From: a virus
Length of the DNA: 64,000 nt
IMG/VR virus record: IMGVR_UViG_3300025168_000054
Coordinates: 1 to 64,000 of that record
Direction: 5' to 3' (one strand)
The notes beneath the pieces were generated by a model. It did not search any database. It was not told the DNA's origin and saw only the letters and a program-made list of their open reading frames with translations. Positions 6,391 to 53,876 of this stretch are shown one piece after another. Positions within the stretch are counted from its first letter, which is position 1, and the number at the start of each line of letters is the position of its first letter. Both the position numbers and the translations under genes were made by a program.

Positions 6391-6398
6391 GACTTACC

Positions 6399-6884: not shown

Positions 6885-7207
6885 CGGCTCGCCTGAGCCT
6901 TATCTGCTTCTCCCGCCAGCCGGTTCTCGAGGTTTTCACGCTCTTTGTTGACGGCTTTTTCGAGCGAATCGAGGTCGTAAAAATCGTCGCCTGCTACTGG
7001 GGCGCGCAACTTTTTGGCGATGGTCTTCAGCTGATTCATCGAGCCGGGGATGCCGCTGTAGCCCTCCTGCTTTTCCGCCGCAGCTTTGCGAAGCCGCGAG
7101 TCTTGATCGCGGACCGCTCGGACAGACGCGGAAAACTTGTTGAGGCTTGCCAGATCGACAGAGTTGTCTTTGAGTTTCTCGAGAGTTTCGTCGTACTCGA
7201 ACTTCAT
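6881..7207 (-). CDS. Hypothetical head-operon protein, 108 residues
   Basis: A charged, probably all-helical protein starting MKFEYDETLEKLKD and ending with Lys/Glu-rich helices. No known motif and no membrane segment. It starts nine bases after the portal stop and overlaps the zinc-ribbon gene by four bases, so it is made with the portal. A small portal-associated or assembly protein is a reasonable guess from position alone. Confidence 0.6.
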   Translation of the reverse strand: MKFEYDETLEKLKDNSVDLASLNKFSASVRAVRDQDSRLRKAAAEKQEGYSGIPGSMNQLKTIAKKLRAPVAGDDFYDLDSLEKAVNKERENLENRLAGEADKAQASR

Positions 7208-29000: not shown

Positions 29001-32000
29001 GTGGCTGAGCGGCAGAACTTTGTTGAGGTGGGCCTGAGCTCAGGAGCGGACGTCTTTGGTTTTGCCGCGGAGTCACTGCTTGAAACTGAGATGGGGCGCG
29101 AGACGCTTGACATGCTCATCGCATCGGGGTCTCTCCCGATTCCTTATGAGCTGACCTCGCCTGGCCGCAGGCACCTCGCCGTAGTCGACATGGCTCGAGC
29201 CACAGGGACTGCCGTGGGCATGCTGGGGGGCCTTGTTGCCGCTGTTGGCGTGCCGGATGCGACCGACTTCTTGCTTATCCCTAAAGTCATGAAGACAGGT
29301 CGACGTGCCTATCGTTTGATCAAGGACATTGACTTGTCGGTTGATGGGCTCGAGGCGCTCACAGAGACGAAGACATTCTCTCGGGCTGTGGGGTCGCGCT
29401 CAGAGATGTTCCTGCACGGAGAAGCTCGACGCACCACACTGGCCCAACTGGCAGCGACGCTTGAGCAGACGTCGGCAAAGGACCTGCAGGGTGCTTCGAG
29501 CGACGAAATCGCGACTCTTCTTCAGTTGGTCGATGATATTCTCGACACTTCCCGTAAGCAGGATGCGACAGACGGGGTCTTCCGTAACGATCTGACAGCC
29601 AGCGTGAAGATCGAGGTGGACCTGGAAGCAGAGAGTGCGCTGAGACTTCGAGCAGAAACTCAGACGCCCGCAGGGGAAGCCGCTCGGTACGCGTTGGACA
29701 AGGACCTCTCGAAGGACGTTCACGCCACTATCGTTGAACTCATCAAAGAGGCGTCGGCGTCAAAGGACCCTCGGCGAGTCGAGTTGGCCGAGGCACTGGG
29801 CGAGCGGCTGAAGGCTTCGCAGCTGCGCGAAGCCGTGAGCCTCTCGCCAGGCCAGACAGACGCGTTTTTGTCGGCCGCAGAAGAGGTGGTTGGTCCAAAG
29901 AAAGTCTTCGGATTCACTGAGCGTATCGAGATTCTCCGTGACGCACTCCTCCTCATCGACCCTGCCTCCGATGGTATGGCGATTCGGAAGAAAGTGTTCA
30001 GTCGCCGGGTCACTGAAGATCGCCTTAGTCGCGTGGCCAACACGGACACTGCCGACCTGCCGGGCTTTGTCGATCCGACTCTGAGCAAGGGCTTGGACCG
30101 CTACGGGCCTGTGACCGAAGAGGCTCTTAAAAAGTCTCTAAGCACTGTGAGATTGGCTGACGCCAAGAAGGGTGAGATCCTCCAGGCTCGCACAAAGCTG
30201 CAGGGTTGGCACGATCGGTTCAAGGCCGCGGTAGCCGACAACAGCATTCTTGACCCTCAGGTTCGGAGCGTGTTGCTCGACGAGTTCAAGGCAGAGAAGC
30301 TCGGAGATTCAAACTACCGGGTCTTCAGCAACTCCGATCGAAGCCGACAGAGTAGCTACTACCGAGGCGTCATAAAGGGCATCGAGGGTGTCGCAGGAGA
30401 TGCGACCAACGCGGCGTTTGGTCAGAACATCCTGGCTCGGGGTCTTCAAGGCGTACTCGCTGCCGCTGATTCGCGCGGGGCCGCGTACAAGAGGTTCGCA
30501 GTCGCACTGGTCGACAAGAGGAAGCTCGAAGCGCTGGATTCCAGCATGGACGCCGAGAAGTTCCTTGCAGGCGGAGAGACCGCTCTGCGCATGCGGAGGT
30601 TCCGCTACGCGCTCCAGTCAGCCACGAAGGAGGGAGTGATGCAGATCATGCTCTCCAATCCTGTGATGAGTCGGCTGATTCCAGAAGGCATTCGCGCGCA
30701 GTACGCTGTGTCCGCTTCGGCGAGGATGGCGAAGCGTCAGGAGATGCTGCGGCAGGGCAAGTCTCCGCTGGACCTCACCAACTTGCTGAAGCGAGAGGCT
30801 CTGACGAAGCTTTCACAGCGTCTGGCAGTGGCAACGACCAGCGGCGATCAGGCAATGGCCGCAAAGCTGACTGCCGACATTGACGAAGTCAAGTCTCCGC
30901 AGTTCTTTGCCAGGGTTTCCCAGTGGATGGACGATTCCATCACAGAGGTGAAGACCGCAGCCGCTGAAGGTCGAGAGCCGAATCTTCCCGGCATCGAGCT
31001 TCCTGTTGGGATCGACCCCGCCATCGTCAACCGTATGGACATGGATCCTAAGCCGCTGAGCGCTACCCGTAAGTTCTTCAGGGAGAGCTACTCGCCGGCG
31101 TTTGGTTTCGGTGCGGTGGAAGAAGTCCCCGCGGGTCCCTTGACCGCAGAGTTGCGCACACGGCGTGCGCGACTTTCTACCTCGGAAAAGCTCGCCAACG
31201 AGGTCGTTCTTGACCACATGCTTCGCTACATGGCAGGCGTCGATCGAACCGACACCCGCGTCATCGCAGAGCGCAAGGTCACCGACTTCCTCGAGAAGCG
31301 TCTGACGGTTCGGTCAATCGGGTCGTATGACTTCGAGTCTCGTCGAGTTGAGCTGCGTACGCAGCTTGATGACTTGTCTGAGCAGATTGCCCAGAGACGC
31401 TTCGGCCAGTCGGTCAACGACCTGGAACCACGAGCGCGCGTCCAGGTTCGCAGCGATGCGTTCAACGTCATCATTCCGTTGATGACTGACTGGGAAGCAT
31501 CTTTGATCTTGGCACGCTCGTCAGAAGAGCTGAAAGAGATCCTCGCGAACGCACGCCTCATCGGTCCGCGGCTGCCTGGCGAGGAAGCCGGAGACGTCAT
31601 TCTCTCGACCTTGTTTCAGGACCCGGAGTTTATGGCGCGCCTGCGTAAGACAGGCGGGGCTACGCGACGTCGCCGCAAGGCAAAGCCTGCCGCAAAGGCG
31701 GCACCAGAAACGGCGGAGACTACAGAAGCTCCCGCTCTGCCCGCTGCATCCGCCGTAGACACGGCCGCAGCAACCGACCGCCCGGCTCGGCGCACCCGTC
31801 GGGCGGCAGTCACTATCGACAAAGAGGCAGCTCCGACTGGTCAGGTGTATGTGGCTAAGGTCGACGAGCTCGACGAGGGCGTACCTGACTCAGTGCTTGA
31901 GGCAGAGTCTGCCTTTGGTAACTCCGCGCTGCTGTGGAGCAGTCTCAGTGATCGTATGGGCGGCCTCCTCGAACAGAGTGAGGTACTGCGTGGTTCGCCT

Positions 32001-35000
32001 ACCTTGGGGTCGGCTTCGTCTACCGTTGTCGGTCAGCGCGCAGTGGGCAGCATCGGCCGGCAAGTCCTCGGAGTCATGGTCGAAGGTCTGCAGGGCCTTA
32101 AAGCAGAGGATTCCTCTGACTTCTTCGTCAAGTTCGCGGAGGCGCTTAAGTCGACAAGTCGCTTCGACGAGCCCATTCGTTTGGCCGTGACTAACAACCC
32201 GGAGGTTGTGGTCACGTTGGCAGAGGTGTTCAGCAAGCAGGCTCGAGGCAACCTGACTCAGGCAGACGTCACTGCCGTCGAAAACCTGCTGCGTAAGGCG
32301 GGTGTACTTTCAAGCGAGTTGAGTGCGCAGGACCTGCTGAAGGTCAACGGCGAGGAAACCAAGGCGGCACTGGCGGCAGATACGGTTGCTCGGGCCGATG
32401 AGTTCGTACCGTCTCCCGCAGCTACGAAGGCTACTCTGCCTGAGGAAGTTGCGCGGAGCTCTGCGCTCGAGGAGGCCGTCGAAAACATCGCCAAGGCTAC
32501 GGGCTCCGATGAAATCCGCAGGCTGCTCACGGACTTGAAGGACTCTGACCACGGGCGAAACATCGAGGCCGTGCTTCGGGCTATCGACATGATCGGCCCC
32601 GAACGACTCAAGAACATCTCACTGGTCATTGAGCCGGCAGAGGGCCAGTCCGCGGCGAAGCGGATGTTCGACTTCACCAACGAGACCATCCGCGTCTACG
32701 ACGACGCTCTCGAGTCCGGCGAGTTTACGCCTGAGGTGCTGTCGCAGTTGTGGCAGTCGCTGACTCGGTATGTGCCTGACGCTGAGGTCAAGGCCCTCAA
32801 GGACGAGTGGCTTAAGGAGCGCGACGCGTTCATGCGGGCGAACCCTGATCGCTTCGGTCGGGACATGACTCCGATTGGAGACTTTGTTCCAGACGAAATG
32901 ACGCTCCTGTCCTTTGACCAATGGATTGCTAACGCTGCCCGCAACGTAGTTCTCGCGGAAATAAACCCAAAAATCACAAATAACCCGGTCCTTCAGGCTT
33001 TCGTCGACACGGTGTCTGCGCTTGTCGAGCAGTTCAAGCTGCGCGGCAAGAAGGTCGGGGCCATGGCCCTGGAGTTCTTGAACAAGGGCAGCCAGAAGTA
33101 TCAGGAGATGGTGCGCGATGGCTCCGTGGACACGGCGATTCGCCGAGCGACGCCTGAGCAGTACTTCGGTGAGCAGCTCAAGTGGCAGGCGTTCCTCGAC
33201 AACCCTGACGCGCGCAAGCCCTCAGTCAAGGCCGTAGGCGAGATGGAAGCCATCGACGAGTTGATCGATGGTGCTGCTGAGACCACGGTTAAAACTGTTG
33301 AGACATTCCTTGCGGAACGCTTCGGTAAGCGCGCGATTCTTACCGAAGAAGGTTTTTCCCTTCTCAAGGCAGAGGCTGTCAAGGACGATGTCTCTCGCGT
33401 ACTGTTTTCGGGGGTCGCCGCGCGGCTGCAAGAGCTGGGTGTGTCGGCCCTCGATGCAGAGGGCAAGCCGCTGTCTCCCTTCCAGATGACGGAGCTGTTC
33501 AAGGAAGTGCGCCGCGGTTTGGTCGAAGAAGCCGCGGACGCGGCTAAGCAGGAAGGTGGCGAAAACTTCAAGAAGGTACAGCGGCTGGGCGAGTTGGAAA
33601 GCGAACTCGCCAAGTTGCGCGCCGCGGGTGAGACCGAAACTCCTCGCGTGATCAAGTTGAGCGAAGACATCAACGAGCTTGACGCTGACCTTCGGGCGAC
33701 GGCGGAAAGTGCCGGCGAATCGACGTCTCCGTTCCAGCGTATGCTTGAAACGAAAACTCAGTCAGAGCGAAAGGTGCTCGCACAGAGCATCCTCGACAGT
33801 GTCGTCGCTGTGATCGCAAAGATTGATGAGTCTCCTGGGCCGATGACTCTGGATGAACTGCTCGAGGGAGTTGAAGATCAGAGTGTCATCAACGAGGTCC
33901 GGCACTTGCTTGGCGTCGCCGGCAAGCGCGGTGACCTCTTGTCGCAAGTTCGAGATGACGGGCGCCTGCTCCTGGCAAGAGCCCCTGGCCGCGTAGTGCT
34001 TCCCGAAGAAGACCTTTACGTCCAGACGCTTCGGGCGGAGGCTGAAGGTCGCGCGTACGAAGCCGACGAACTCGCCGATGAGGTTGACAAGATCCTCGGT
34101 CTGAGGCCTGACATTGCTCGGGACGAAGCTCGTAAGCTGGCTTCGGGCTACCTCGAAGAGCTTCGACAGGCCGCAGCCACTGCTCGCCGTCAACGGCTTG
34201 AGCGTGGGGCTATCGACGCAAGTATGCTGGACGAGCTTTTGCTGAACGAGGCATCGTCTCTGGCAGCTGACGCCGCACGCACGGGTCTGCGGGCCGACCT
34301 CGATGTACAGATTGATGAGATCGTCGCCGCCGTCCCCGACGCAGGGACGGTGCCGTTCAACACGACGAGAAAGGTCTCTGACGACTTCGACATCGTTTCT
34401 TTCGAGTCAAACCCTGGGGTCGAGCAGGCCGCGTTTGCCTTGTCCAACGCGAGCAGCCTCAGAAAGAGCCCGCCGAAGAGCATCAAGAAGGGCGCGAACG
34501 AATCGGCCGAAGCGTTTGCTGCGCGGAGTAAGCAGCTCATGGCGACAAACCGCTCTGCGGCTATCACGCTGGTCATCGACATGTTCGAGGGTCTGCGCCC
34601 TTACATCGCGCTTCCGGCCGAGATTGTAGTCAAGCGCAACAAGGTCGATAAGACCATCTATCTAAAGGACGTCCTGCCTGGACAGGACTTTAGCAAGCTG
34701 CGGGTTTTGGATACCAAGGCGTTCTTGAAGAAGTACACCGAGCTGATCGAGGAAGCTCTCAAGGAGCAGGGGCTACTCGAAGAGGTCAAGTCACTCTCGT
34801 CGGCGATGCAGAAGAGCGAGTTCGACGACGCCGTCGCGCGTGCTCGTAAGCAGAAGTCCGTAGAGGCCGAGCCTGTGGTGGAGCCTGCGGCAGTTGAGCC
34901 TGCAGCCGCTCGGACGGCTACTGACGACCGGTTTGTGTTGAAAGCCCGTGAGATGTTTGACGACGGCAAGACTCCTCGTGCCGCGGAGAGTGTGCGAGAG

Positions 35001-38000
35001 GCCATCGAAAAGAACGCGGGATCTGGCGCCGCGAAGGCGTTCGGCGATGAGTACAAGTCCCTCAGAGACGCCGCTGTTCAAGCCCGTGTTCGTCAGGACG
35101 CCGCTGAGGCCACCACCGGTGCCGCTGAGCCTAAGGCGACTCCTTCTCCCACGGTTGCTTCGCCAACGACTACGCGGTCTTTGCCCAAGGCAGGAGAAAA
35201 GCACACGCCGCCGACGCCAGCAGAGGCTCGCGCAGAGACTGCTGCCGCGCCGAGGAACGAACGCGGTGTCTCACTGGGCAACCCGGCACCTTCCAGAGAT
35301 GACCTACCTAAGATCGAGACGGTCGTTAAGCCCTACCGCGAGATGGGCAAGCAGTCTCCTGAGACGTTGGCTGAGCACGCGAGTGCTCGTGGAATCGACC
35401 TCGCCGATCACTCGACGCCTGAAAGTCTCGCGAACGCTGTGGGTCAGGCAGACGTAAAGTCTGCGCGCGTGGCGCAGGCTGTGTCGGGTGACGCGCCTCC
35501 GGCCGCGGCCAAGGCGGCACCGCCTGAGGCCTTTGCCGCAGCGGCAGACATCACTGCCGCAGAGGCGAAGACCGTCAATGCGATAGACGCCATGGTCGAT
35601 GCGCTCGCACCGGAGAACGCAGACAAGGTCGCCAAGCGTGTTGCACGTCTCCAGAAGCTTATCGACAAGTCGGAAGAGATCGAGGCGCTTTCAGCCAAGC
35701 AGGTGGTCGACTACGTCTTTGACGACCTGGATGTTGGCGCGCGAGAGACTCTGGCGAACTCCGGGGCAATCGACGACATCGTCAAAGACCTGACGAGGAT
35801 TTTCAACCAAAACGTCGCGGACGTAAAGCGAGAGTCTCGGCGGCTTCGTCGAACCTTTGAGAGTCTGCAGAAGCTCGCCAAGAAGCTGGAAGGCAAGGAT
35901 CGTGAGCGGGCTCTCCGTGCTGCTGCCCGAGCGGAACGGCAAGCAACATCCATGGAGGAAGCTCTTCGCGAGCTCTTGAGGTCTGACCGGCTGGACGAGT
36001 TCGCCGATCTTCTCGAGACTGAGCGAGCAGCCGGCAAGGTTCGGCGGAAGGCAGAAAAGCAGGCCCGAGAAGAGGCCATCATCTCGTTCATCAGCCGTGG
36101 GGCACCTCCCCGCCCTCCAGGTACGCCTAAGACCCCGCGCAATCGCGGAGTAGATAAGGTCCCTAAGAACGTCAAGGGGATGGTGTATTTCCTCGACGAC
36201 TCACAGGCGATTATCTACGCGTTCAAGTCGGCAGATGCTGAGACAGGTCTCCACGAGATGGCGCACGTTTTGCGGCGCAACTTGCGGGACGCAGACCTCC
36301 AGGTTTCTTTGGGCTGGGTCAACTCTCAGCTGGAAGCGCGGGGCATGGAGAAGGTGCGCCTGGCTTACGGTGTTGACAGCCGGACGGGCAACTTCATTGG
36401 TCGAGGTGACTCTGTTCACTACGCCGAAGAGCTTTTTGCTGAAGGCTTTGAGCAGTACATGCGCGAGGGCGTGGCCCCGACGAAGATGCTCGAGAACGTC
36501 TTCAAGATCATGAAGGAGCTTCTGCACAACATCTTCGTCTCGGCCAAGCGACAGCCGGAGAAGATTGAAATCAGTCCTGAGATGTACGCGGTGTTTGACC
36601 GCGTCTTCGGGGCAAAGCAGACGTTCACGATGGACGACATGCCCGACGCGATGATGTTCCTCAACGTGCAGGACGACCTCGGTCGATCTGTCGTGGGCCT
36701 GGGTGGCCGGCTTGAGACTGACCTCATCCTTGAAGACACTGTGACAGGTCGTTTCCGCCAGCTTGAGATGAGCCTCGACGACTATCGCCGTCGCATGGGC
36801 AAAAGCGGCGAGGCGGGTATCGTCGGCAAGGTCGCGTCGAAGCTGCCTACTCCTAAGGCGGCTGTGGGTGGTCTCGGCTTGGGTTCACGAACCAGCCAGT
36901 ACCTTGACCCTGTCAGTAGCCGCGTGCTGTCTGCCGAAGACCGCATGCTTCTCAACAGGTTCCGCCGCGGTGAGATCGAAAGGTCTGATCTGCCCAACCG
37001 ACTTCTGCCTGAGATCGAGAAGGGCTTGCGTGTGACTGGTGAGGCGGCGGTGCTCGTTGGCTCGCTCACACTGAAGGCTGCGCGCCTTATGTACGGCGAC
37101 GATGCTTCTCGCGTCATCCGCACGTACAACCCGGCTCAAAGAGTCCACATGAAGGCGGGAGCGAGGGAGGGTGAGGAGTTCTCTAACGGCGCGTCAGTCT
37201 TGATCAACGACATCTCTCGACGCATGGGTGCCTCTGCCGAACGCGCGCTGAACGACATCATCAGCTACTTCTCAGGTCAGTCGGCGCAGCTGTTGACTGG
37301 GTCGGAGAGAGGTAAGAGACTCAATGCTACGAATGTAGACATCTTCGAGCACGTCTCGAGAATGTTCCACGACATGCTCTGGAGGATGGACCCAGAAGCG
37401 CGGGTTGCCTTGATACAAGCGGCAGAAAATCGTTTGAGCAAGCCGCTGCACGCGACAACTCAGGATGACATCCTTCCGCTGTCAGGTTTGTGGAACGGCT
37501 ACGTCGTCCGCAACCGAGCAACCCCAGAGAAGTCGGCGCTGTCATTTTCCGGGGAAGGAATCTTGCTGAGCAATGACTACATCGACGTAGTTAAGCCTGG
37601 ACTTGCGAAGGGTGGCTCTATCGAGATCGATAGTTTTTTGCAGGACACTCTCGGAGACCTCTATGTCGCAGTGACCGGGCAGCCCCTCAGTAAAGGTACG
37701 AAGGTTCCTCCCACAGCCTTGGATATGGCTGCGCTGCTCGTGCTTCACTCCGGCGGCTCGATGCTGAAGGCTTCCGATGGAAGCGCGGTTCACCTTGACC
37801 AGGTCTTGAAGGCCGCCGGCGTGAGCCGCGGAGAGGCTTTGATCAAGGGCGTTACCGCCGAAGTCAACGGCTCGACCGTCAAGGTCCCCGGACTCATGAC
37901 GACGTCAGTCGCCGTTGAGCGTCGCTTGCCAGTGCTCATGTCTCTGGGGCATGCCGGGTTTGCGTCAGGCATGCTCGACGACGCGGCGAAGTGGGGCTTT

Positions 38001-40667
38001 GGTCTTACCGGACGAGAGTACCGAGCGTTCATGCGCTACGTCACAGGTCAGCAAGGGGCCATGTCTTTGAGCGATATCGAAATGGCGAAGAGCGTCATTA
38101 GCCGCTTCGGTATTTCGGCAGAGTTTGTCACCAACTCACGTCGTCATGGGCAGTATTACCTCCCCAAGCAGGCTCGAGACGCGCTGCGAGACCAGATGTC
38201 GCAGGCAGCACGGCAGTTTGATTACGGCGAGAAGGGTGGGAAGAGCTCCGTCGCAAGAGACGCCTTCGGCATCTACAACTCGTTGCTGTACTCAACGATG
38301 GTGTTTGGGGCAGTTGTAGTCAAGCCGTTCTACCGGCTGGCGTCGTTGATCGACTTGGGTCTCGGTGCTCTGGGTATGGGGGGCGCTCGCGCAGCCACAG
38401 CTGCGGTCACACGAGCAGGCGTAAGTACCTTGCTGGCGTTTGCTTACGAAGGGTTCCCGCTACTGTCTGCGGAACGCGCCGCAGAAGCTGTGGGGCTTGC
38501 CGGAGACGCCGGCCGCGCGGTTGTTCGACGTGTTCGAGGTGACGTAGATTCCGCGAAAACTGTGTTGGATTTCAAGCAGCAGATTCGCGATGTAGCAGCC
38601 GAGTCTGGAGACAACCTTGCTCGTATGATTACCGAGACTTCAGCCAGCGCGAAGTACCGCCCGGAAGTGCGCCCCATCATGGAAGCGCGAGCAGACATGA
38701 TCTTCGTCATCAATGGTCGTCCTTACCGGGCTTCTGACCTTCGGCGCATCTTCGTTCGGTCTGGCCTGTACAACAACATGTTCAAGTCCATCAAGGCCAC
38801 GTACATGGCGGAGGGCGGTTCGCTCACTGAAGTCATGGACCGGGTGAAGCGCAGCGTGAAGGAGAAGTACGGAGATGACGCGGCTAACGTGAAGATGCTC
38901 GACAGCTTCCTCGAAGAAACGACAGACACGAAAAATCCGTTCAACATCATGGGCGGTATCCGCGGAGCCGGTGACATGGCTCTTCGTCACGGCCTTGAGT
39001 CTGCCGACGCGTGGGCAGACCTTGAGCGCACAGGTCTGGCGGTCACATTCATGGAGTTGGGCCACTCACCGCAGACGGCGGCCCGTATGGTCGTTGAGGC
39101 GGTTTACGACTACCGAGGCTCTATGACCTCGGCTGATCGCAGCATGTTCAACAAGGTGACGCGACCGTTCTTTGCTTTCACCAAGAACGCGATTCACCAT
39201 CTCACAAACATGATGAGCTCTCCTCTCGGGCGGTTTTACGCTCGTTCGATGGCGAAGCTGCCGTTCCTTTCAGCTGACGCTGCGACTGCGGTGCTGTACG
39301 AGTTCCTGGTCGGACCTTACGGAATCAACACCTCCGCGATGAACTCAAGCGAGGTCAACGCGTACTACGACATGAGAAACTTCCTCGAGTACGGTCTGGG
39401 CGAGCAGGTTGACCGAAATACTCTGCAGCAGTACCGAGAGATTCTGCCGGATGAGGCAAAGGACATTAGCGACCAAGAGTTGATGGACCACGACTTCGGC
39501 GGATGGACCATCCGCAACGGGTACAACGGCTACGACAACGTGCCGGAAGACGCTCGAGTGTCTGTGCGTGCTTTGATCGCCAGCAGGTCGAAGCTGTACG
39601 CAAAGGGCCGGTACCTGTACGTTGCGAAGGTTCTACAGGACGAAGAACTTCGGGAGGAGTTCGTCAAGCTTGGTGGAGCTATGGCGGTTCAAGATGAGCC
39701 CAGCCGTCGCGGGCAAGCTTCCTATATGTACAACCGCTATCCGACGATTCAGGTTCCTTTTCCGGTGCTGAACGCCAGCGCGCAAGAGGCGATGCGGCTT
39801 GGCCTCAGTGATTCCGTTTACTGGATGCTGCCGGATAACTTCGTCCACTCAGGCATCGCCGAAGCCAGCGCCATGATGGCTACAGCGTTGGTTGTTCTCG
39901 ATGAATCTTTGAATGCAATCCCAGGGGGAAAGCCATTCTTCCCCGACGTCGCGGCAACGCGTGCCCAGCGTGCGGCAGCGCCTTTGATAGACATACGCGG
40001 GTACGGCAGTCCGATTGCTGCCGACATCATCAAGGGCGGCGCCGCGTTGTTCGGTAAAGGCAACTTGTTCGTCGAAGTCGACCCGCTCATCGCACGCGTG
40101 CTGCAGGGGTCAATGATTCCTGTCGCTAACGCCGACGACATCGACGAAGATGACCTGGGTATCTTGCTTCAGCTCGCCCAGTCTGACCCGGAGCTTTACA
40201 ACCAGGCGATCAAAGTCTTCAGCCAGATGATGGGCGGCAGCGTGGGCCGAGAAATACAGTTCCCTGCCTTTGCAGACGAAGTTCGAGCTGCGCGCATGAT
40301 TGTCAAGGACGGTAGGCGAGAAGTCGTGTTTGCCAATCGCGGCGGTGTCTTTGACCGTGAGTTCCTCGAAAAGGGCGCTAAAGACTCAAGCGAGAAAGCC
40401 GTCCGAAAGAAGCCGTTTCTGGTTGGTAAGTCCGCGGTGCTGTTTAAGATCACGCCGCTGGGTCAGCTCAATCAGGCGCTCTTGCAGTACCGTAAGACTC
40501 CTCAGGAAGGTCAGCTCGAAGCACAGAAGGAGCTTCGGTCGGAGATTATCCGCTTCATCACAGCCCAGGGCCGACAGGTCGGTATGCGTACTTCCGGGGC
40601 TGACGAAGAGCGCGTGACAGAAACAATCGAGCGGGCTGCGAACAAGGTCTTCGAAGAGTACAAGTGA
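26082..40667 (+). CDS. Giant 4861-residue ejection/polyvalent protein with muramidase-like and zincin domains
   Basis: One uninterrupted frame of 14.6 kb. About residues 440-625 resemble N-acetylmuramidases of the DUF3380 type: VTKAEST with Glu465 as likely catalytic residue, then INPVAAVQGGAFGEFQVTG near 538-556 and a closing AKEYYG. A zinc metallopeptidase motif, HEMAH (H3391, E3392, H3395), is followed by EELFAE (E3450 or E3454 as third ligand), in the LHE-x2-H context seen in large polyvalent proteins. Linkers rich in Ala, Pro, Lys and Arg lie near 1850-1910 and 2920-3060. Hydrophobic segments lie near 1042-1066 and 4072-4128. PFFAFTKNAI near 4362 is typical of phage internal virion proteins. 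The place equals T7 gp16 (1318 residues, wall-cutting ejection protein). It likely enters the cell with the DNA, cuts peptidoglycan and helps form the channel. Confidence 0.75.
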   Translation: MSYLTSLEKRASFPLRPAEQKEEVKVDEVAAPAAPAFTSTVPGTGIRPISDLLPSEGKTPEYSFGDVPTPKENPFDIAFGSREKVAALYSEIVDTTARKRYEAGQLAEKYNFDDQEEEGFFVGLAKEAGETLMGREILPREPSDEKVVLKRTDVDSYMVESPVSVSGRPSPVTGLSQLVLGASAIDPESRPARELKKQGRTAKKIPNAEDIRVNVTNERLRAAFISQAKDKESGAQSYSAYVQRIADNLAKEGKDATFRDAQLFIAGNVIARLPKPAGQGDPGIVVAQRDAVNLVSQYTDPSFTRGLAQTLPMAPLRLGVAGSEKLGDRIDPSRVFDPYVEEDTEMKRSDPLGARARGPMTASEAERAQFLEQRMFFPVDFEYDEDKSLKTSTTAAQTMNDLIVDGSLILGGAEGNFDDMYGERSVTEVYSSKVISGESDQNRLIALAAKAGIPVDKTYAVTKAESTGNPASFAFNLHLGQHNPKDPSNPRNRTAEQEQRLRQLMASEGLKVNFESRAAQNYYGKNARRALDLAAAINPVAAVQGGAFGEFQVTGKYGDALGYVKETFPEVETDEQAAGVFLNMFKQSPGVVGDDMFVRWFQRNPDAQKAANDGDISGLAKEYYGSLSDPEEVGISAAEKARREKQVETRDGWVGRATNASEAYLGGMIDSARKATRPEAQSAETSTDDPPTSLSQQGLLENESVFTSEESREDISQVEEALQLRAVEVETGVSTVMTMFGDMAQAPTPGSSAFIAAVAPIKDAKENDAQLYTVVKDNRDAPMGTGYRNVANFLFERKVNTTLGERSLSDLSAEETKRLKAEARQEAFAVVTSAQTENLWRTSFYTSFDYLLGEEADSVFAAMAPRIEVMGRTKDGFVFRQEGDVLAAAAALDAPAVLGQSFNIGVIGNYLFPAIEAAYTEYEQGNRGAASLAFAVTGETVAAVAGSFGAYIPYSNDIGVEFLNEVHRAGVQGVAERQNFVEVGLSSGADVFGFAAESLLETEMGRETLDMLIASGSLPIPYELTSPGRRHLAVVDMARATGTAVGMLGGLVAAVGVPDATDFLLIPKVMKTGRRAYRLIKDIDLSVDGLEALTETKTFSRAVGSRSEMFLHGEARRTTLAQLAATLEQTSAKDLQGASSDEIATLLQLVDDILDTSRKQDATDGVFRNDLTASVKIEVDLEAESALRLRAETQTPAGEAARYALDKDLSKDVHATIVELIKEASASKDPRRVELAEALGERLKASQLREAVSLSPGQTDAFLSAAEEVVGPKKVFGFTERIEILRDALLLIDPASDGMAIRKKVFSRRVTEDRLSRVANTDTADLPGFVDPTLSKGLDRYGPVTEEALKKSLSTVRLADAKKGEILQARTKLQGWHDRFKAAVADNSILDPQVRSVLLDEFKAEKLGDSNYRVFSNSDRSRQSSYYRGVIKGIEGVAGDATNAAFGQNILARGLQGVLAAADSRGAAYKRFAVALVDKRKLEALDSSMDAEKFLAGGETALRMRRFRYALQSATKEGVMQIMLSNPVMSRLIPEGIRAQYAVSASARMAKRQEMLRQGKSPLDLTNLLKREALTKLSQRLAVATTSGDQAMAAKLTADIDEVKSPQFFARVSQWMDDSITEVKTAAAEGREPNLPGIELPVGIDPAIVNRMDMDPKPLSATRKFFRESYSPAFGFGAVEEVPAGPLTAELRTRRARLSTSEKLANEVVLDHMLRYMAGVDRTDTRVIAERKVTDFLEKRLTVRSIGSYDFESRRVELRTQLDDLSEQIAQRRFGQSVNDLEPRARVQVRSDAFNVIIPLMTDWEASLILARSSEELKEILANARLIGPRLPGEEAGDVILSTLFQDPEFMARLRKTGGATRRRRKAKPAAKAAPETAETTEAPALPAASAVDTAAATDRPARRTRRAAVTIDKEAAPTGQVYVAKVDELDEGVPDSVLEAESAFGNSALLWSSLSDRMGGLLEQSEVLRGSPTLGSASSTVVGQRAVGSIGRQVLGVMVEGLQGLKAEDSSDFFVKFAEALKSTSRFDEPIRLAVTNNPEVVVTLAEVFSKQARGNLTQADVTAVENLLRKAGVLSSELSAQDLLKVNGEETKAALAADTVARADEFVPSPAATKATLPEEVARSSALEEAVENIAKATGSDEIRRLLTDLKDSDHGRNIEAVLRAIDMIGPERLKNISLVIEPAEGQSAAKRMFDFTNETIRVYDDALESGEFTPEVLSQLWQSLTRYVPDAEVKALKDEWLKERDAFMRANPDRFGRDMTPIGDFVPDEMTLLSFDQWIANAARNVVLAEINPKITNNPVLQAFVDTVSALVEQFKLRGKKVGAMALEFLNKGSQKYQEMVRDGSVDTAIRRATPEQYFGEQLKWQAFLDNPDARKPSVKAVGEMEAIDELIDGAAETTVKTVETFLAERFGKRAILTEEGFSLLKAEAVKDDVSRVLFSGVAARLQELGVSALDAEGKPLSPFQMTELFKEVRRGLVEEAADAAKQEGGENFKKVQRLGELESELAKLRAAGETETPRVIKLSEDINELDADLRATAESAGESTSPFQRMLETKTQSERKVLAQSILDSVVAVIAKIDESPGPMTLDELLEGVEDQSVINEVRHLLGVAGKRGDLLSQVRDDGRLLLARAPGRVVLPEEDLYVQTLRAEAEGRAYEADELADEVDKILGLRPDIARDEARKLASGYLEELRQAAATARRQRLERGAIDASMLDELLLNEASSLAADAARTGLRADLDVQIDEIVAAVPDAGTVPFNTTRKVSDDFDIVSFESNPGVEQAAFALSNASSLRKSPPKSIKKGANESAEAFAARSKQLMATNRSAAITLVIDMFEGLRPYIALPAEIVVKRNKVDKTIYLKDVLPGQDFSKLRVLDTKAFLKKYTELIEEALKEQGLLEEVKSLSSAMQKSEFDDAVARARKQKSVEAEPVVEPAAVEPAAARTATDDRFVLKAREMFDDGKTPRAAESVREAIEKNAGSGAAKAFGDEYKSLRDAAVQARVRQDAAEATTGAAEPKATPSPTVASPTTTRSLPKAGEKHTPPTPAEARAETAAAPRNERGVSLGNPAPSRDDLPKIETVVKPYREMGKQSPETLAEHASARGIDLADHSTPESLANAVGQADVKSARVAQAVSGDAPPAAAKAAPPEAFAAAADITAAEAKTVNAIDAMVDALAPENADKVAKRVARLQKLIDKSEEIEALSAKQVVDYVFDDLDVGARETLANSGAIDDIVKDLTRIFNQNVADVKRESRRLRRTFESLQKLAKKLEGKDRERALRAAARAERQATSMEEALRELLRSDRLDEFADLLETERAAGKVRRKAEKQAREEAIISFISRGAPPRPPGTPKTPRNRGVDKVPKNVKGMVYFLDDSQAIIYAFKSADAETGLHEMAHVLRRNLRDADLQVSLGWVNSQLEARGMEKVRLAYGVDSRTGNFIGRGDSVHYAEELFAEGFEQYMREGVAPTKMLENVFKIMKELLHNIFVSAKRQPEKIEISPEMYAVFDRVFGAKQTFTMDDMPDAMMFLNVQDDLGRSVVGLGGRLETDLILEDTVTGRFRQLEMSLDDYRRRMGKSGEAGIVGKVASKLPTPKAAVGGLGLGSRTSQYLDPVSSRVLSAEDRMLLNRFRRGEIERSDLPNRLLPEIEKGLRVTGEAAVLVGSLTLKAARLMYGDDASRVIRTYNPAQRVHMKAGAREGEEFSNGASVLINDISRRMGASAERALNDIISYFSGQSAQLLTGSERGKRLNATNVDIFEHVSRMFHDMLWRMDPEARVALIQAAENRLSKPLHATTQDDILPLSGLWNGYVVRNRATPEKSALSFSGEGILLSNDYIDVVKPGLAKGGSIEIDSFLQDTLGDLYVAVTGQPLSKGTKVPPTALDMAALLVLHSGGSMLKASDGSAVHLDQVLKAAGVSRGEALIKGVTAEVNGSTVKVPGLMTTSVAVERRLPVLMSLGHAGFASGMLDDAAKWGFGLTGREYRAFMRYVTGQQGAMSLSDIEMAKSVISRFGISAEFVTNSRRHGQYYLPKQARDALRDQMSQAARQFDYGEKGGKSSVARDAFGIYNSLLYSTMVFGAVVVKPFYRLASLIDLGLGALGMGGARAATAAVTRAGVSTLLAFAYEGFPLLSAERAAEAVGLAGDAGRAVVRRVRGDVDSAKTVLDFKQQIRDVAAESGDNLARMITETSASAKYRPEVRPIMEARADMIFVINGRPYRASDLRRIFVRSGLYNNMFKSIKATYMAEGGSLTEVMDRVKRSVKEKYGDDAANVKMLDSFLEETTDTKNPFNIMGGIRGAGDMALRHGLESADAWADLERTGLAVTFMELGHSPQTAARMVVEAVYDYRGSMTSADRSMFNKVTRPFFAFTKNAIHHLTNMMSSPLGRFYARSMAKLPFLSADAATAVLYEFLVGPYGINTSAMNSSEVNAYYDMRNFLEYGLGEQVDRNTLQQYREILPDEAKDISDQELMDHDFGGWTIRNGYNGYDNVPEDARVSVRALIASRSKLYAKGRYLYVAKVLQDEELREEFVKLGGAMAVQDEPSRRGQASYMYNRYPTIQVPFPVLNASAQEAMRLGLSDSVYWMLPDNFVHSGIAEASAMMATALVVLDESLNAIPGGKPFFPDVAATRAQRAAAPLIDIRGYGSPIAADIIKGGAALFGKGNLFVEVDPLIARVLQGSMIPVANADDIDEDDLGILLQLAQSDPELYNQAIKVFSQMMGGSVGREIQFPAFADEVRAARMIVKDGRREVVFANRGGVFDREFLEKGAKDSSEKAVRKKPFLVGKSAVLFKITPLGQLNQALLQYRKTPQEGQLEAQKELRSEIIRFITAQGRQVGMRTSGADEERVTETIERAANKVFEEYK

Positions 40668-47221: not shown

Positions 47222-50044
47222 TCACACTTCTACCCAGGTGCGGCCCACGTCCGCCTCACAGGTAAACGTCACCGGCCAACCCGGTACGTCGATCGTCATG
47301 CACTCCGTCATCTTCTTCTGCGCCCACTCCGCCAAGTGCTCAGGCACCTCGACGATGAGTGAGTCATGGACTTGCGCGGTCAAGCCTGTGCCTGGTCCCC
47401 ACTGCTGAAAGGGGAACGCCTCCAGCACGCGCTGCTCGGCGATGGCCATGACGGCGGCTTCGCACGCGAGGATGGGAAAGTTGACGACCTCGTTTTTCTT
47501 GCCGTCCTGCAAGCCTCCGCTTCGTCGACCGAACAGGGGGTCTTCCATGTAGCCCTGCTTGTCGTAGAGCATGAGCATGTCTTGCCAAGCCATCATCCAG
47601 TCGGTCTCGGCGTCGTGCCAGACCCGGTCGAAGAACCGAACCTGGTTGAGGTCGAACTGAAGGTACGGCAGGTCGGTGTGTAGATACTCGCTGCCGTCCT
47701 TGCGCTGCCGAAAGCCCGTGAGCTCGGTCGAACGAATCACGGAGTGCTTGGTCTCAGCAGAGGCCCAGTAGATCGACGCATAACGGTACGTCTTGGTCAG
47801 CTCTCGAAGCTGGCCCGCCTTGCCTTTCTTGCTTGGCTTATGCGTGGCCTTCAAGCTGAAGCCCTTTGTCCAACCTGAAGCCTGTTCAAAGTCTTTGCCG
47901 AACAAGTCGTGCGCCAACCAGCAGTGCGGGTCGAGGTCATCAGCGAAGCAGTCGAGCAGTCGTTGGATGCCCCAGTAGTTGGCGGTAATGACCAAGTGCG
48001 CCGCACTGAGGTCGCAACCCACCAGCACGTGGCCCGGCGCTGCGCAATACAACGACCTCACGCCACCCAGGTCTTTGCGGCTGGATTGGTTCTGCATGTT
48101 GGGTCCGCTCGACGAGAGGCGCCCAACAGCGGTCGTGTGACTGTTCCACGAGGAACGCACGCGCCCGTCGGGATGTAGTGACCCGCCGTCCTTCAGGGGG
48201 CGTAGGCCATACAGCTGCGTACCCAACACCTTGGTCCTGACCCGTCGATACTGGCGCAAGGTCAGAAGGAACTGCCGCTGCTTCTTGTTGATGTCAGGGC
48301 TGGCCATGTGAGACCGCAGCACCGCATCACCTGTACCCGGCAGACCAGACTCGGTGTAGAAGTCTTTGGCGTCCATGCCGTAGGGGATGCCCAGGTCCCA
48401 CCGCTCATACAGCAGGTCACGGACCTGGTCGAACGAGCCCGGATTGAAGTCCTGGTTCGCCTTGCGCTTCGCCCCCACTGCTTCGGCAAGACCTTGAAGC
48501 TGGTCGTAGAGGTCTACGGCGACCTTCTCAAACCGGTCGGTCAGCAGCGACGCCTTCTTCTGGTCGACGTAGATGCCGTTCTGGTGCATCTGCACACACA
48601 TGTCCTGTCGCGCATGGTCGAGGTTCCGCAGGTCCCAGGGACGGGCAGAGGGCCAGCTGACCGGCTTCGCCCACTCGGGCAACGGCTTGTCTGCTCCGTT
48701 GGCGTTGGCGGATCTACGCAGCGGCTCTGTGATGCGAGCGTTGACCACGGTGTCGTACTCGCAGTACGTCAACCGCTCCTTGTCGAGCACCTTCCCGCCG
48801 CTGTTCTTCTCACCGCTCTCGCTGGTCTCCCACTTGTGTACGTCAGTCAGCCGACGACCAGTGGGCTTGAGACCTTTGGGCAGGTCAGGGTGGGTGAAGC
48901 GAGCATCGAACAGTGTGTCGTGAGTCGGTTGCGGATTGACCCCGAGCCAGTGCTCAGAGACTTGGCGATCGAAGTACCCCGCGTTGTGCCCCACCTTGGT
49001 CTTGCTGGTGTTCGTGAAGAACTCCCGCAGCACTTCCTTGATGGCCTCCTCCCCGCTCGGCGAGTAGTAGCGCCGACCCGGCGAGTCTGTGCCCATGATG
49101 TTGATACCGACGCTACGTGCCAGCTGGAAGGGCTCCTCCCAGGGCATCGTTGGATTCCCGTGCCTGTCCAGGTCAGGAGTTGCAATGGCCAAGCACCGCA
49201 CACCGATGTCGCGGACGTTGATACCGTCGGTCTCGTAGTCGTAGACCCAGAAGGGTGAGGGGACTGCCAGCCATTCTCGGAGCTCGTGCGCGGTCGGCTG
49301 CTCTGATAGTTCGGGCTCAAGCCACCGAAGTACGTTGTTGAACCAGCGGAAAGCCTTACCCAGCGTGGCGTAGAACTGCGGGCGTAACTTCGGAGAGTGC
49401 TTGACATAGCCAGGGTCGTAAGTTGAAACGACTTTAACTTTCCAATCATTGCTCGACTGAGTCCAGTCGTAGGCTTGCCAGGTCAAACGGCTGACCTTGA
49501 CTTCTCGCATGTCGCCCTCGAGATGGGACATGCTTGAGGTGGTGTCGAGCACGCGCTGCGCTGCCGTACTGCCCAGCGGGAGGATGTATCCGTAGGCTGA
49601 GAGGTGAGATTGCAGGTAGGGGGCGCAGCAGTCAGCCGGGTGAGGTAGCGCTTCTTCGACCTGACGCTTTGCCTCGGCCGCGGACGTGCCTTCCTTACGC
49701 AGCTTCTTCGTCAGTGCTTTACGCCGACGGCGTAGTTGCGCCTCCATCTTCTTCCACCCGTCTCTCGGAGCGCAGGCCGTCACGAAGAACAAGTCGATCA
49801 TCGACCTGTTCAGCCCCGTGGCTCTCAAAGCACGGTCCCACTCGGCACCGTCCAGCCCGCTCAAGGGGCGGCTGTGCCTCACGTCTTCGCGCTTGGGCGC
49901 TTCAAGCACGGCAGCGACTGTCGTGCTCTCGTGTATCTCGGGGGGCACAGGCTCCCACCCGTCTCCGACGAGACAGCCGCCCGGCCCCATGGGGCACTGA
50001 TTGCACTTGGCGCCCCTCTTTCGGGGGTCGAATCGACTACTCAT
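47222..50044 (-). CDS. polA: Family A DNA polymerase with N-terminal uracil-DNA-glycosylase-like domain
   Basis: 940 residues from the ATG at 50044, eight bases inside the upstream gene's end. Residues 1-200 look like a family 4 uracil-DNA-glycosylase module as in SPO1 polymerase: CNQCPMG, VAAVLEAPKREDV in place of GEAPG, LSGLDGAEWDRALRATGL, and a later CC pair. The 3'-5' exonuclease follows: VYDYETDG near 267, HNAGYFD near 353, YCEYD near 427. Polymerase motifs: A, GCDLSAAH near 675; B, KTYRYASIYW near 750; C, VHDS near 891 where VHDE is usual. These cover proofreading and replication. The glycosylase motif is altered, so that domain may bind an Fe-S cluster or DNA without excising uracil. 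Confidence 0.88.
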   Translation of the reverse strand: MSSRFDPRKRGAKCNQCPMGPGGCLVGDGWEPVPPEIHESTTVAAVLEAPKREDVRHSRPLSGLDGAEWDRALRATGLNRSMIDLFFVTACAPRDGWKKMEAQLRRRRKALTKKLRKEGTSAAEAKRQVEEALPHPADCCAPYLQSHLSAYGYILPLGSTAAQRVLDTTSSMSHLEGDMREVKVSRLTWQAYDWTQSSNDWKVKVVSTYDPGYVKHSPKLRPQFYATLGKAFRWFNNVLRWLEPELSEQPTAHELREWLAVPSPFWVYDYETDGINVRDIGVRCLAIATPDLDRHGNPTMPWEEPFQLARSVGINIMGTDSPGRRYYSPSGEEAIKEVLREFFTNTSKTKVGHNAGYFDRQVSEHWLGVNPQPTHDTLFDARFTHPDLPKGLKPTGRRLTDVHKWETSESGEKNSGGKVLDKERLTYCEYDTVVNARITEPLRRSANANGADKPLPEWAKPVSWPSARPWDLRNLDHARQDMCVQMHQNGIYVDQKKASLLTDRFEKVAVDLYDQLQGLAEAVGAKRKANQDFNPGSFDQVRDLLYERWDLGIPYGMDAKDFYTESGLPGTGDAVLRSHMASPDINKKQRQFLLTLRQYRRVRTKVLGTQLYGLRPLKDGGSLHPDGRVRSSWNSHTTAVGRLSSSGPNMQNQSSRKDLGGVRSLYCAAPGHVLVGCDLSAAHLVITANYWGIQRLLDCFADDLDPHCWLAHDLFGKDFEQASGWTKGFSLKATHKPSKKGKAGQLRELTKTYRYASIYWASAETKHSVIRSTELTGFRQRKDGSEYLHTDLPYLQFDLNQVRFFDRVWHDAETDWMMAWQDMLMLYDKQGYMEDPLFGRRSGGLQDGKKNEVVNFPILACEAAVMAIAEQRVLEAFPFQQWGPGTGLTAQVHDSLIVEVPEHLAEWAQKKMTECMTIDVPGWPVTFTCEADVGRTWVEV

Positions 50045-50420
50045 CGTTGTTCTCCCAACGGCATCGCCGTTTGTTTGGGAAGCCTTTGTAGACTTCGATC
50101 TCGTGGTGTGATGCGTACCTTCGGATGGCCTGCTCAAGAGCGACAGTCGTGCGCGGCCAACCAACACGGTCTCGGATGATTGGGTACGACATGCGTTCGG
50201 TATTGCGCAGTCGTATGGCCTCGATCAACATCGACTCTCGTAGGAACCTCTTGGGGCTGTTGCTTCGGTCAATCTTGCCAAGGTGCTGATGAATCTGCTT
50301 TCTCAACGTACTGACGTTGACGTCCATGTCTTCGGCGACGTCCTTCCACTTCTCACCATGCTCCACCCGAGTTTTTGCTCGGCGGAGCATAGGAAACGTC
50401 CACGTACGTTGAGGCGCCAT
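50037..50420 (-). CDS. Helix-turn-helix DNA-binding protein
   Basis: 127 residues from the ATG at 50420 (TAATG overlap with upstream gene). Two helix-turn-helix-like segments are visible: KWKDVAEDMDVNVSTLRKQI in the first half, and IIRDRVGWPRTTVALEQAIR in the second. It is basic overall. It could be a transcription regulator of the replication genes or a DNA-binding accessory to the polymerase it is coupled to. Which one is not shown. Confidence 0.55.
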   Translation of the reverse strand: MAPQRTWTFPMLRRAKTRVEHGEKWKDVAEDMDVNVSTLRKQIHQHLGKIDRSNSPKRFLRESMLIEAIRLRNTERMSYPIIRDRVGWPRTTVALEQAIRRYASHHEIEVYKGFPNKRRCRWENNDE

Positions 50421-51358: not shown

Positions 51359-52348
51359 TCACTCGGACGGAGGAGGTGGAGCCTTCGAGCCCTTTACGGG
51401 CTTCGGTGGATCCAATACTTTGAAAAGATTGTCGCTGCGCTGCTTCTGGATGACACCTCGTGCGATGCCGTCCTGCACTGCCCAGCGAATGTGCAGCTGC
51501 GTCTCTCGTCCGCTGCCCTTGGCGAACTTCTGCGCCTTGTTGACGCCAGCGTTTACGGCCGCACTGACGTCCCCCGTCTGCACGGCCTTCGCCACGAGGT
51601 CAGCAACTTCGTCCTGCCACTCAAGCCCCGGACGGCGAGACAGCCCGTAGTCGACAGCGCTGGCACGAAGAAGCTCACGGACATTCGGCGGGCTCTCGGC
51701 ATAACCAACACCGTTACGGTCTCCGGTTACCCAAGTGCTGTCCCATGGGTTGACGTAGAGGCCGCCTTTGATCCAAGGGTCCGGGTAGTCGCTGTTGACG
51801 ACAGCGCGAGCGTTGAAGTCGCACCAAGCCGGGACACGAACAACCTGGCCCTTGCTGCCCAGGGAGGGTCCACCGGGGACGAAGGTGCCATCCATACCTG
51901 ACCCTGGCGCCTGCTCGTGGGCGACCATGAAGACACTGACACCGATGTGCCGAGCCTTCTCGGCCAGACGCAGCAGCTTGTCCTTGAGCTGTTGGTACGG
52001 CCAAAACTTGTCGACCTTGCCGCTGTTGGTGATCTTGGGGTTGTCCTGCCAGAACCTCAAGCTCGTCTCGCACAACGCCGTCATGCCATCTACGCAGATG
52101 GCAGGGTACGAATCGACCAACCCCTGCTCTTCCAGCATGGTCATGAGGTCAAGCAAGTCAACGAGAGTTCTGACTGGGTGGTCATAGACCGTGGGTTCAA
52201 ACCCCCACTCATTCTGAGTGACGCTCTTGATCGCGTTCATCCCCTCGCCCGGAATCCACAGGGCGTTGGGGAATGCGCTCGCGACCATCGAGGTCTTCAT
52301 GCGCTTGGGCTGGCCAAAAACCATGCCCATGACCGTGGCATTCGCCAT
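51359..52348 (-). CDS. Sak4-like RecA-family ATPase
   Basis: 329 residues. Walker A GQPKRMKTS at 12-20, Walker B ICVDGMT near 84-90, and VSVFMVAHEQ further on match RecA-fold single-domain ATPases of phages (AAA_24/Sak4 type), which promote annealing and recombination together with SSB. The protein then has an extension rich in Ala/Lys and a tail ending SKAPPPPSE, echoing the tail of the SSB-like neighbour. GGAGG ribosome site. It would serve recombination-dependent replication with the Cas4-like nuclease upstream. Confidence 0.7.
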   Translation of the reverse strand: MANATVMGMVFGQPKRMKTSMVASAFPNALWIPGEGMNAIKSVTQNEWGFEPTVYDHPVRTLVDLLDLMTMLEEQGLVDSYPAICVDGMTALCETSLRFWQDNPKITNSGKVDKFWPYQQLKDKLLRLAEKARHIGVSVFMVAHEQAPGSGMDGTFVPGGPSLGSKGQVVRVPAWCDFNARAVVNSDYPDPWIKGGLYVNPWDSTWVTGDRNGVGYAESPPNVRELLRASAVDYGLSRRPGLEWQDEVADLVAKAVQTGDVSAAVNAGVNKAQKFAKGSGRETQLHIRWAVQDGIARGVIQKQRSDNLFKVLDPPKPVKGSKAPPPPSE

Positions 52349-52482: not shown

Positions 52483-52890
52483 TTATTCGTCAATCTCCCA
52501 GTGATGCTGGGTACCGGGCTCATGGCATCGGCGGATATTACGAACGCTGCCCCCCGTCAGACCCAGCTTTTCGCTCAGGAAATCAACAACTTGTTTGACA
52601 TTGAACTCCTTGCAGGAGAACAAGTCGAAGCTCACATGTCCTCGCAGAGGCCACGTATGAATACTTCCGTGCGACGTGGTCAGGATTACAGTGCCCGTGA
52701 CTCCTCCGTCGTCCTCGCCGTTCTCGACCATAGGGTCAAGCGGCACGGCGACCATTTCCGCAGGCTTCAGAATCTGCATACCTACCATCTCGACCAGTTC
52801 GTTGAGCACCGCACCGATCAACTCAGGGTCGTTGAGGCGCTGCGACTCTTGGGTCCAGGCGTCAATGATTACGTGTCTACCTGTTTTCAT
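52483..52890 (-). CDS. speD: S-adenosylmethionine decarboxylase-like (SpeD) pyruvoyl enzyme
   Basis: 135 residues from the ATG at 52890 (GGAG eight bases upstream). Matches the short bacterial/archaeal AdoMet decarboxylase: GRHVIIDAW near 4-12, LNDPELIGAVL, then TSHGSIHTWP with Ser73 and His78, and Cys93 in FDLFSC. Ser, His and Cys have the same 0/+5/+20 spacing as S63/H68/C83 of the family. Ser73 would become the pyruvoyl group after self-cleavage. The residue before it is Thr, not Glu. Family role: decarboxylate AdoMet for spermidine synthesis. Some phage homologues have been reported to act on arginine or ornithine. No spermidine synthase is present here. Confidence 0.8.
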   Translation of the reverse strand: MKTGRHVIIDAWTQESQRLNDPELIGAVLNELVEMVGMQILKPAEMVAVPLDPMVENGEDDGGVTGTVILTTSHGSIHTWPLRGHVSFDLFSCKEFNVKQVVDFLSEKLGLTGGSVRNIRRCHEPGTQHHWEIDE

Positions 52891-52895: not shown

Positions 52896-53876
52896 TTACT
52901 CCGGGCCGTACTGGCATAGTTCAAACGCGCCGCACTTACCGTAGCGGTGGTAGCAAACGAGCTCGCTCTGAGCCATTTGCCAGTCCCCCTCGGTCACGTA
53001 CGCTCTCTTGTGGTTGACGAGCTGGTTGCCCAGCGACATCGCCCTCGAGTAAATCTGCCGAGCCAACTGTTCGTCACGCCAAGGTGTGGCGGGTACGTGC
53101 TGACGACTCACGGTCCAGGGGCTGCGCCGCTGCACCAAGTTCAAGATGACCCCTCCGAAGTCCTCGTACAACTGCTGGCCCATGATGCGGTTGACGGCGA
53201 ACTGGCCGTCCATGGCGTACTGCTGAGCACGAGTCTTGCTCACACTCCCGCCGGTCACCTTGTGATCCCAGATGTACGTTCGCCCGTCGGAGCTATGCTT
53301 CATCACGAGGTCGAACCGCTTGGTCAATTCGATGGGCTTGCCGTGCTGCAGCGCCGGAACGCCACGAACAGGCTCCTCAAGCCCAGGGCAATCCAGCAAC
53401 GTAGGCTCTGAGAGATTCTTGTCGAGCCATAGGCCGAAGTCTCCTTCGTGGTTGTGCCCCAAGGTCAGCTTGACCTGGTTCTCGACAGACACCACACGGT
53501 CAGAGACATAGGGCTCCTTCTGAAGATATCGACGGAAGACATCAAGCGTCGTGCCGATGTAGGGGTGAGCGTCTACGCCTTCGAGCTCTCGCCGACGCAC
53601 CCACTCACGAACTGCCGCATCGGGAGGTAGGAAGTGGTCAGGGTCTGTGACGTGCTGGCCTTCGTACTCGAAGCCTCCCTGCTCGCAGCCCTTCTGAGCG
53701 TAGTAGTGAGCGAGCACGGTGTGGCCCATTGACCCCAGTGTCAGCGCCTCGGCGTTGATGAACTCACGCTGCTTGACGTTAATGATGAACCATAATCGGT
53801 CACACTTAAAGGCTGGTCCCCAGAAGGACCAGCCTGTTGTGCTTCGACCGGTGTCGATGAGGATGGGCTCAGGCAT
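52896..53876 (-). CDS. Cas4/RecB-like PD-(D/E)XK nuclease with Fe-S cysteines
   Basis: 326 residues. The nuclease core has RFDLVMK near 186-192 and YIWDHKVTG near 201-209, giving the D and D-x-K of the PD-(D/E)XK fold. Four cysteines are placed as in Cas4/AddB: C25 near the N-terminus and C308, C315, C321 at the end (VCYHRYGKCGAFELC), expected to hold a 4Fe-4S cluster. The family cuts single-stranded DNA ends, often to prepare recombination. It lies next to the SpeD-like and Sak4-like genes and overlaps the portal-like fragment gene by eight bases. Confidence 0.8.
   Translation of the reverse strand: MPEPILIDTGRSTTGWSFWGPAFKCDRLWFIINVKQREFINAEALTLGSMGHTVLAHYYAQKGCEQGGFEYEGQHVTDPDHFLPPDAAVREWVRRRELEGVDAHPYIGTTLDVFRRYLQKEPYVSDRVVSVENQVKLTLGHNHEGDFGLWLDKNLSEPTLLDCPGLEEPVRGVPALQHGKPIELTKRFDLVMKHSSDGRTYIWDHKVTGGSVSKTRAQQYAMDGQFAVNRIMGQQLYEDFGGVILNLVQRRSPWTVSRQHVPATPWRDEQLARQIYSRAMSLGNQLVNHKRAYVTEGDWQMAQSELVCYHRYGKCGAFELCQYGPE

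Follow-up and report, generated by a model that had tools for sequence, protein, structure and literature searches.

A SpeD homologue among recombination genes of a marine phage, with agmatinase-like and SpeY-like genes in the same record, suggests a route from arginine to homospermidine

The window, by which we mean the whole stretch of 64,000 nucleotides that was analysed (bases 1-64,000 of a virus record of 79,958 bp), contains a speD homologue of a marine phage on the minus strand at 52483..52890. It is an ATG-initiated open reading frame (52890-52483) of 135 amino acids with a G+C content of 0.547, which we annotate from the reading frame, profiles, alignment and predicted fold as a putative pyruvoyl arginine decarboxylase of the SpeDA type. 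Its start lies 5 nt past the stop codon of the gene just upstream, a PD-(D/E)XK exonuclease gene (52896..53876, minus strand), and a likely ribosome-binding site, GGAG (52899..52902, minus strand), is located 8 nt ahead of the ATG; both the ATG and the GGAG are retained in all six relatives that were inspected. A Sak4-like AAA gene (51359..52348, minus strand) lies just downstream. These two neighbours, each assigned by a domain match, bear out the location among recombination genes given in the original prediction.

The SpeD protein matches the Pfam model AdoMet_dc (PF02675) with 82.6 bits (E 3e-23; cut-off 25) and phrog_3125 with an E value of 3e-20, and it is therefore not the product of a chance open reading frame. 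Its score with TIGR03330, the equivalog model for true AdoMetDC, is 70.1 bits, which is under the cut-off of 75.65. An AlphaFold model obtained with a 58-row alignment has a pLDDT of 90.9 and matches the structure of the T. maritima AdoMetDC (1tlu) with a Z score of 16.8 and an rmsd of 1.9 over 116 aligned residues. By profile, fold and the Ser, His and Cys residues, the protein belongs to the class 1b AdoMetDC superfamily (PF02675), in agreement with the earlier assignment as a SpeD-like, predicted pyruvoyl decarboxylase. The gene is under purifying selection: dN/dS is 0.046 in comparison with a 90% identical relative (L001), while synonymous sites are saturated in comparisons with L004 and L009.

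The SpeD segment TTSHGSIHTWPLRGHVSFDLFSC was aligned to T. maritima AdoMetDC (1tlu). Ser73 (codon 52672..52674; this and the following codons are all on the minus strand), the predicted self-cleavage and pyruvoyl residue, falls on Ser63 of the T. maritima enzyme, His78 (52657..52659) falls on His68, and Cys93 (52612..52614) falls on Cys83, which is exactly the spacing claimed at the outset. Thr72 (52675..52677) stands in place of Glu62 before the cleavage serine, as had also been noticed. A second change, beyond those in the original prediction, is Leu82 (52645..52647), which replaces Glu72 after Trp-Pro and is kept in all five aligned clade members; Glu72 of the T. maritima enzyme presumably contacts the ribose of AdoMet. 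The Ser, His and Cys are invariant across the viral clade (five aligned members), as are the blocks Thr-Thr-Ser-His and His-Thr-Trp-Pro-Leu, at identities down to approximately 51%.

In the 77-row alignment, the residue before the cleavage serine is Glu in 59 rows, Thr in 14, Gln in three, and Asp in one. Thr is found at this position (-1) in the SpeD homologue of HTVC201P, which reads ETSHIAFH, and in four Omnitrophota SpeDC-like proteins, which read ETSSITGHF; phiN3 SpeD has Asp. PMC9992855 describes the HTVC201P enzyme as a proven pyruvoyl arginine decarboxylase and phiN3 SpeD as a proven AdoMetDC. Because the proven HTVC201P enzyme and the SpeDC-like rows share Thr at -1, Thr72 is compatible with cleavage. 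The reading of this residue as a sign of lost cleavage was rejected on the basis of the two proven enzymes with Thr and Asp, respectively. We did not treat the FSCKxF motif as a reliable sign of an arginine decarboxylase, since phiN3 SpeD has this motif yet is an AdoMetDC; the same motif also defined how the cellular rows were gathered.

In IMG/VR, the relatives of the SpeD protein comprise nine sequences at 52-90% identity and one at 32%. We compared 35 loci around the Sak4-like gene for the presence of SpeD: it is located between the exonuclease and Sak4 genes in 11 of them (8 distinct contigs), 22 have both neighbours without SpeD between them, and the exonuclease was not seen in the remaining two. 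One of the 22 (L154) has a different SpeD at 7792-8280, beside a Dam gene. Thus, the locus survey together with L154 indicates that SpeD is optional in this phage group and occurs at two sites and in two types. The proposal that the company of recombination genes implies a role in DNA condensation found no support here, as related phages are without SpeD at that site and L154 has another SpeD elsewhere. The L154 protein is canonical-looking with a long extra loop, and its phage is related to that of the window. In another relative (L010, 3056-3432), a frameshift interrupts speD, possibly an assembly error.

The part of the window from 40001 to 64000 had no megablast match among 50,697 phage records. 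Its family A DNA polymerase (981 amino acids; window 47222-50167, minus strand) gave weak matches only, and the N-terminal part of this protein has a weak uracil-DNA-glycosylase-like match (22.6 bits vs a cut-off of 24.3). On the plus strand, an open reading frame of 4,861 amino acids (window 26082-40667) takes up nearly one fifth of the phage genome; no PHROG match and no tandem DNA repeats were found for it.

The virus record has an exact 127-bp terminal repeat and is therefore probably complete. We searched it for five polyamine families (PF02675, PF01564, PF00491, PF01916, and PF04371). Within the 64-kb window, speD is the sole match among them, and neither spermidine synthase SpeE (PF01564) nor AguA (PF04371) was found in the whole record. 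Past the end of the window, two divergent genes are located 24 kb from speD: a SpeY-like gene of the deoxyhypusine synthase family (PF01916; ORF 76542-77516, family match 76557-77480, minus strand) and an agmatinase-like gene (PF00491; ORF 77630-78625, family match 77705-78568, plus strand). Thus, the absence of a spermidine synthase, as originally stated, extends to the whole record; the statement that no other polyamine gene is present is correct for the window with respect to these five families and incorrect for the record.

The agmatinase-like protein matches PF00491 with 163.5 bits (E 2.2e-49), and its metal-site blocks GGDHS, DAHADLR, and DIDGLDP align with those of 3pzl and 3lhl. Its best NCBIfam model is agmatinase (TIGR01230), with 136.8 bits vs a cut-off of 174.3, and the arginase model gives 94.1; we use the label "agmatinase-like" because the score is under the TIGR01230 cut-off. 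The SpeY-like protein matches PF01916 with 134.2 bits (E 2.1e-40), and its ITWGK block, the lysine of which we take to be catalytic, is aligned to SWGK of the solved deoxyhypusine synthase (DHS). Its best model is NF001980 (homospermidine biosynthesis) with 126.9 bits, DHS models give at most 102.9 bits, and the agmatine-joining model NF002699 gives 79.4. The score with NF001980 is under the cut-off of 450, hence "SpeY-like".

The pair of genes most likely is phage DNA, as judged from a comparison with a relative (G108) of 81,570 bases with a 123-base terminal repeat. In blastn, G108 matches the record at 75,246-76,524 (86%) and at 78,667-79,916 (84%), and in G108 the gap between both matched blocks is 60 bp. 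With G108-like DNA on both sides, the pair is a clean 2.1-kb insertion. We rejected the possibility of a host flank or a chimera on account of this G108-like phage DNA on both sides and the exact 127-bp terminal repeat. The G+C content of the pair is 0.548 vs 0.603 for the record, and it is equally low in 12 of 1,558 stretches of the same size. The SpeD protein of G108 is 90% identical to that of the window, yet G108 is without the agmatinase and SpeY genes; SpeD must therefore be useful without them. No plasmid donor of the pair can be named: the best plasmid match of the agmatinase is at 42% (Persicobacter), and that of the SpeY-like protein is at only 26%. On the Persicobacter plasmid pPP3 (L199), this agmatinase gene shares an overlap with a canonical speD, at the end of the latter, and a gene annotated as arginine decarboxylase is 4 kb away.

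For phylogenetic analysis, 124 rows were assembled; one tree was built with 95 and the other with 77 of them, near-copies and some other rows having been omitted by hand, and the -1 column was removed before the 77-row tree was built. In the 77-row tree, the query clade groups with HTVC201P, a second pelagiphage-type sequence and L021 (support 93/85), and this group joins a clade of FSCK-type and SpeDC-like rows (96/84). HTVC201P is set apart by very long branches of nearly 3 changes per site. The query clade falls outside the canonical AdoMetDC rows, although constraining it with them gives an AU p of 0.274; constraining it with the SpeDC-like rows gives a borderline AU p of 0.054. The tree of cellular and phage SpeD proteins called for in the original prediction thus places the query clade with HTVC201P but does not reject a canonical AdoMetDC placement. 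It leans towards an arginine decarboxylase without deciding the matter.

The cellular context was examined by a genome scan with FSCKxF, in which 80 of 210 confirmed relatives were listed; among the matches listed, the closest cellular relative is a Woesearchaeota protein (40%). Neighbours were counted at 50 of the 80 listed loci. In 17 of the 50 genomes, we found a total of 18 FSCK-type copies with an agmatinase-family gene no more than 3 kb away; three of these copies are also near SpeE, and one of the agmatinase matches is weak, partial and at a contig edge. As for other SpeD copies in the 50 genomes, seven are near SpeE alone and four are near both SpeE and agmatinase; the canonical type was inferred for four copies next to SpeE, of which G016 has two and G025 and G045 have one each. 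PMC10407285 reports that SpeD homologues from speB/speY clusters without speE, e.g., in Ca. Marinimicrobia, are proven arginine decarboxylases. The FSCK-type copies near agmatinase genes fit these proven enzymes.

How common are such genes in viruses? A 2023 survey (PMC9992855) lists a single phage agmatinase and no viral or phage SpeY, and polyamine enzymes occur together in only one of its phages, which has AdoMetDC and spermidine synthase. We found no SpeY-like gene in 50,697 phage records. In IMG/VR, 18 loci, perhaps not all of them viral, have SpeY-like proteins at 46-52%; one phage-like tail chaperone domain occurs among nine neighbours. A SpeD homologue is also present in 9 of the 18 SpeY-holding records, and an agmatinase in one of 15 tested. 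These nine records (L183, L185, L187, L189, L190, L191, L194, L197, and L198; contigs of 27-465 kb) have no agmatinase in the seven tested and no AguA in any of the nine; perhaps their SpeD is an ornithine decarboxylase, agmatine is the substrate joined by their SpeY, or host enzymes contribute. Agmatinase-like genes occur in 8 phage records (best 31%), and a scan of IMG/VR for close relatives found none. Of the virus records in which all three families were sought (11 plus 15 SpeY-holding), the window's own is the only one with the full set. No later report of a phage SpeD-SpeB-SpeY set was found in the literature covered, which excludes subscription journals and preprints. Two further loci combine genes of these families. 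At one IMG/VR locus (L188), an agmatinase-family gene (5165-5992) ends right at the start of a SpeY-like gene (6001-6957). A record named Microcystis phage MaAM05 (L020; MW495066.1, 246500-250000) has consecutive genes for an agmatinase, a spermidine synthase and two SpeD proteins; the tree places its speH_1 near Vampirovibrio chlorellavorus, so that the record may be of bacterial origin or reflect a recent capture.

Several known systems resemble the phage genes. The SpeD homologue of HTVC201P (AXH71538; PMC9992855), the proven enzyme nearest to the query in the tree, is likewise a phage protein with Thr before the cleavage serine, encoded two genes after an exonuclease gene; however, it is very distant, and its HSWDE corresponds to HTWPL of the query. 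The SpeD-SpeB-SpeY clusters known from Ca. Marinimicrobia, Woesearchaeota, and other lineages (PMC10407285) comprise the same three families without SpeE, and SpeD is a proven arginine decarboxylase in several of them; the genes are clustered in the cells, whereas the phage speD lies 24 kb from the divergent pair. Chlorovirus PBCV-1 also encodes a route from arginine to homospermidine, but it is a eukaryotic virus and uses other enzyme families (PLP-type ADC, AIH, NCPAH, and HSS), and an uncultured Caudovirales phage with AdoMetDC and spermidine synthase has more than one polyamine enzyme, but as a putrescine-to-spermidine module (both in PMC9992855). In Thermus thermophilus, CdmS and a ureohydrolase (PMC10981699) similarly combine a coupling enzyme with a ureohydrolase and lead from agmatine to homospermidine; that route is bacterial and differs in the order of steps.

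We propose, with a probability of roughly 0.58, that the phage SpeD homologue is a SpeDA-type enzyme that starts a route from arginine via agmatine and putrescine to homospermidine. The three genes, with their families and key residues, are located in one terminal-repeat phage record, and we infer that their products act as one pathway. The class 1b SpeD-fold proenzyme would cleave itself between Thr72 and Ser73, forming a pyruvoyl group on Ser73, and would then decarboxylate L-arginine, rather than AdoMet, to agmatine. The agmatinase-like protein would convert agmatine to putrescine, and the SpeY-like protein would convert putrescine to homospermidine in an NAD-dependent reaction, so that the route as a whole would need neither PLP nor AdoMet. 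SpeDA is recognised by the lack of a SpeE partner in a genome equipped to use agmatine, which is the arrangement found here, with an agmatinase-like gene in the record. Together with the grouping with HTVC201P (93/85), it indirectly supports arginine as the substrate; thus, the original guess of an altered decarboxylase gains ground for arginine, and for ornithine, grouping with the SpeDC-like rows is disfavoured (AU p 0.054). On the other hand, the AU p of 0.274, the long branches to HTVC201P, the occurrence of SpeD alone in G108, the 24-kb distance and the sub-cut-off scores of the partners count against the SpeDA pathway. So may the Trp-Pro that the query keeps: PMC10407285 names a Pro that AdoMetDCs conserve and SpeDA enzymes do not, which may or may not be this Pro.

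The SpeD protein could instead be a true AdoMetDC that feeds a host spermidine synthase; in that case, the other two genes would be later arrivals that act separately. The retained HTWP, the AU result for the canonical placement and the presence of SpeD without the other two genes in G108 speak for it, as do several tested phage SpeDs that are AdoMetDCs (PMC9992855), phiN3 SpeD also having a residue other than Glu before the serine. We consider it unlikely but credible, given that the phage has no SpeE and an agmatinase-like gene instead, that the TIGR03330 score is under the cut-off, and that Glu62 and Glu72 are both replaced. Quite unlikely is a route of the CdmS type, with a different order of steps, in which the SpeY-like protein would act on agmatine: the phage has exactly the enzyme families required by the route in PMC10981699, but its SpeY-like protein scores higher with NF001980 than with NF002699.

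Direct production of putrescine by a pyruvoyl ornithine decarboxylase of the SpeDC type would agree with Thr at -1, as in the SpeDC-like rows, and with the ornithine decarboxylases among phage homologues (PMC9992855). We find it very unlikely, since only Thr is present of the four diagnostic residues (Gln, Thr, Phe, and Tyr; PMC10407285; positions inferred from Omnitrophota SpeDC-like sequences), grouping with the SpeDC-like rows is disfavoured, and the agmatinase-like gene would be left without a substrate. The replacement of two conserved Glu residues would also suit a SpeD protein kept for binding or regulation with no decarboxylase activity, which the invariant Ser, His and Cys in the clade and the dN/dS of 0.046 make barely plausible.

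Phages need polyamines for replication, yet the known examples mostly contribute just one enzyme. Taken alone, the SpeD gene is a further member of the known phage enzymes; the three-gene set, the activities of which we infer, is novel as a combination in a phage. We would give about even odds that this is the first bacteriophage known with an arginine-to-homospermidine route consisting of a SpeD-fold arginine decarboxylase, an agmatinase and SpeY. An auxiliary gene that stands alone within a window may belong with others at a distance in the same genome, and with genes for three consecutive steps in one phage record, a whole triamine pathway, and the question of which triamine is needed, become testable. 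If the arginine-to-homospermidine reading is correct, the phage would synthesise a triamine of its own with no need for PLP or AdoMet, the host polyamine could shift from spermidine to homospermidine during infection, and related phages with SpeD only would represent an earlier stage that relies on host enzymes.
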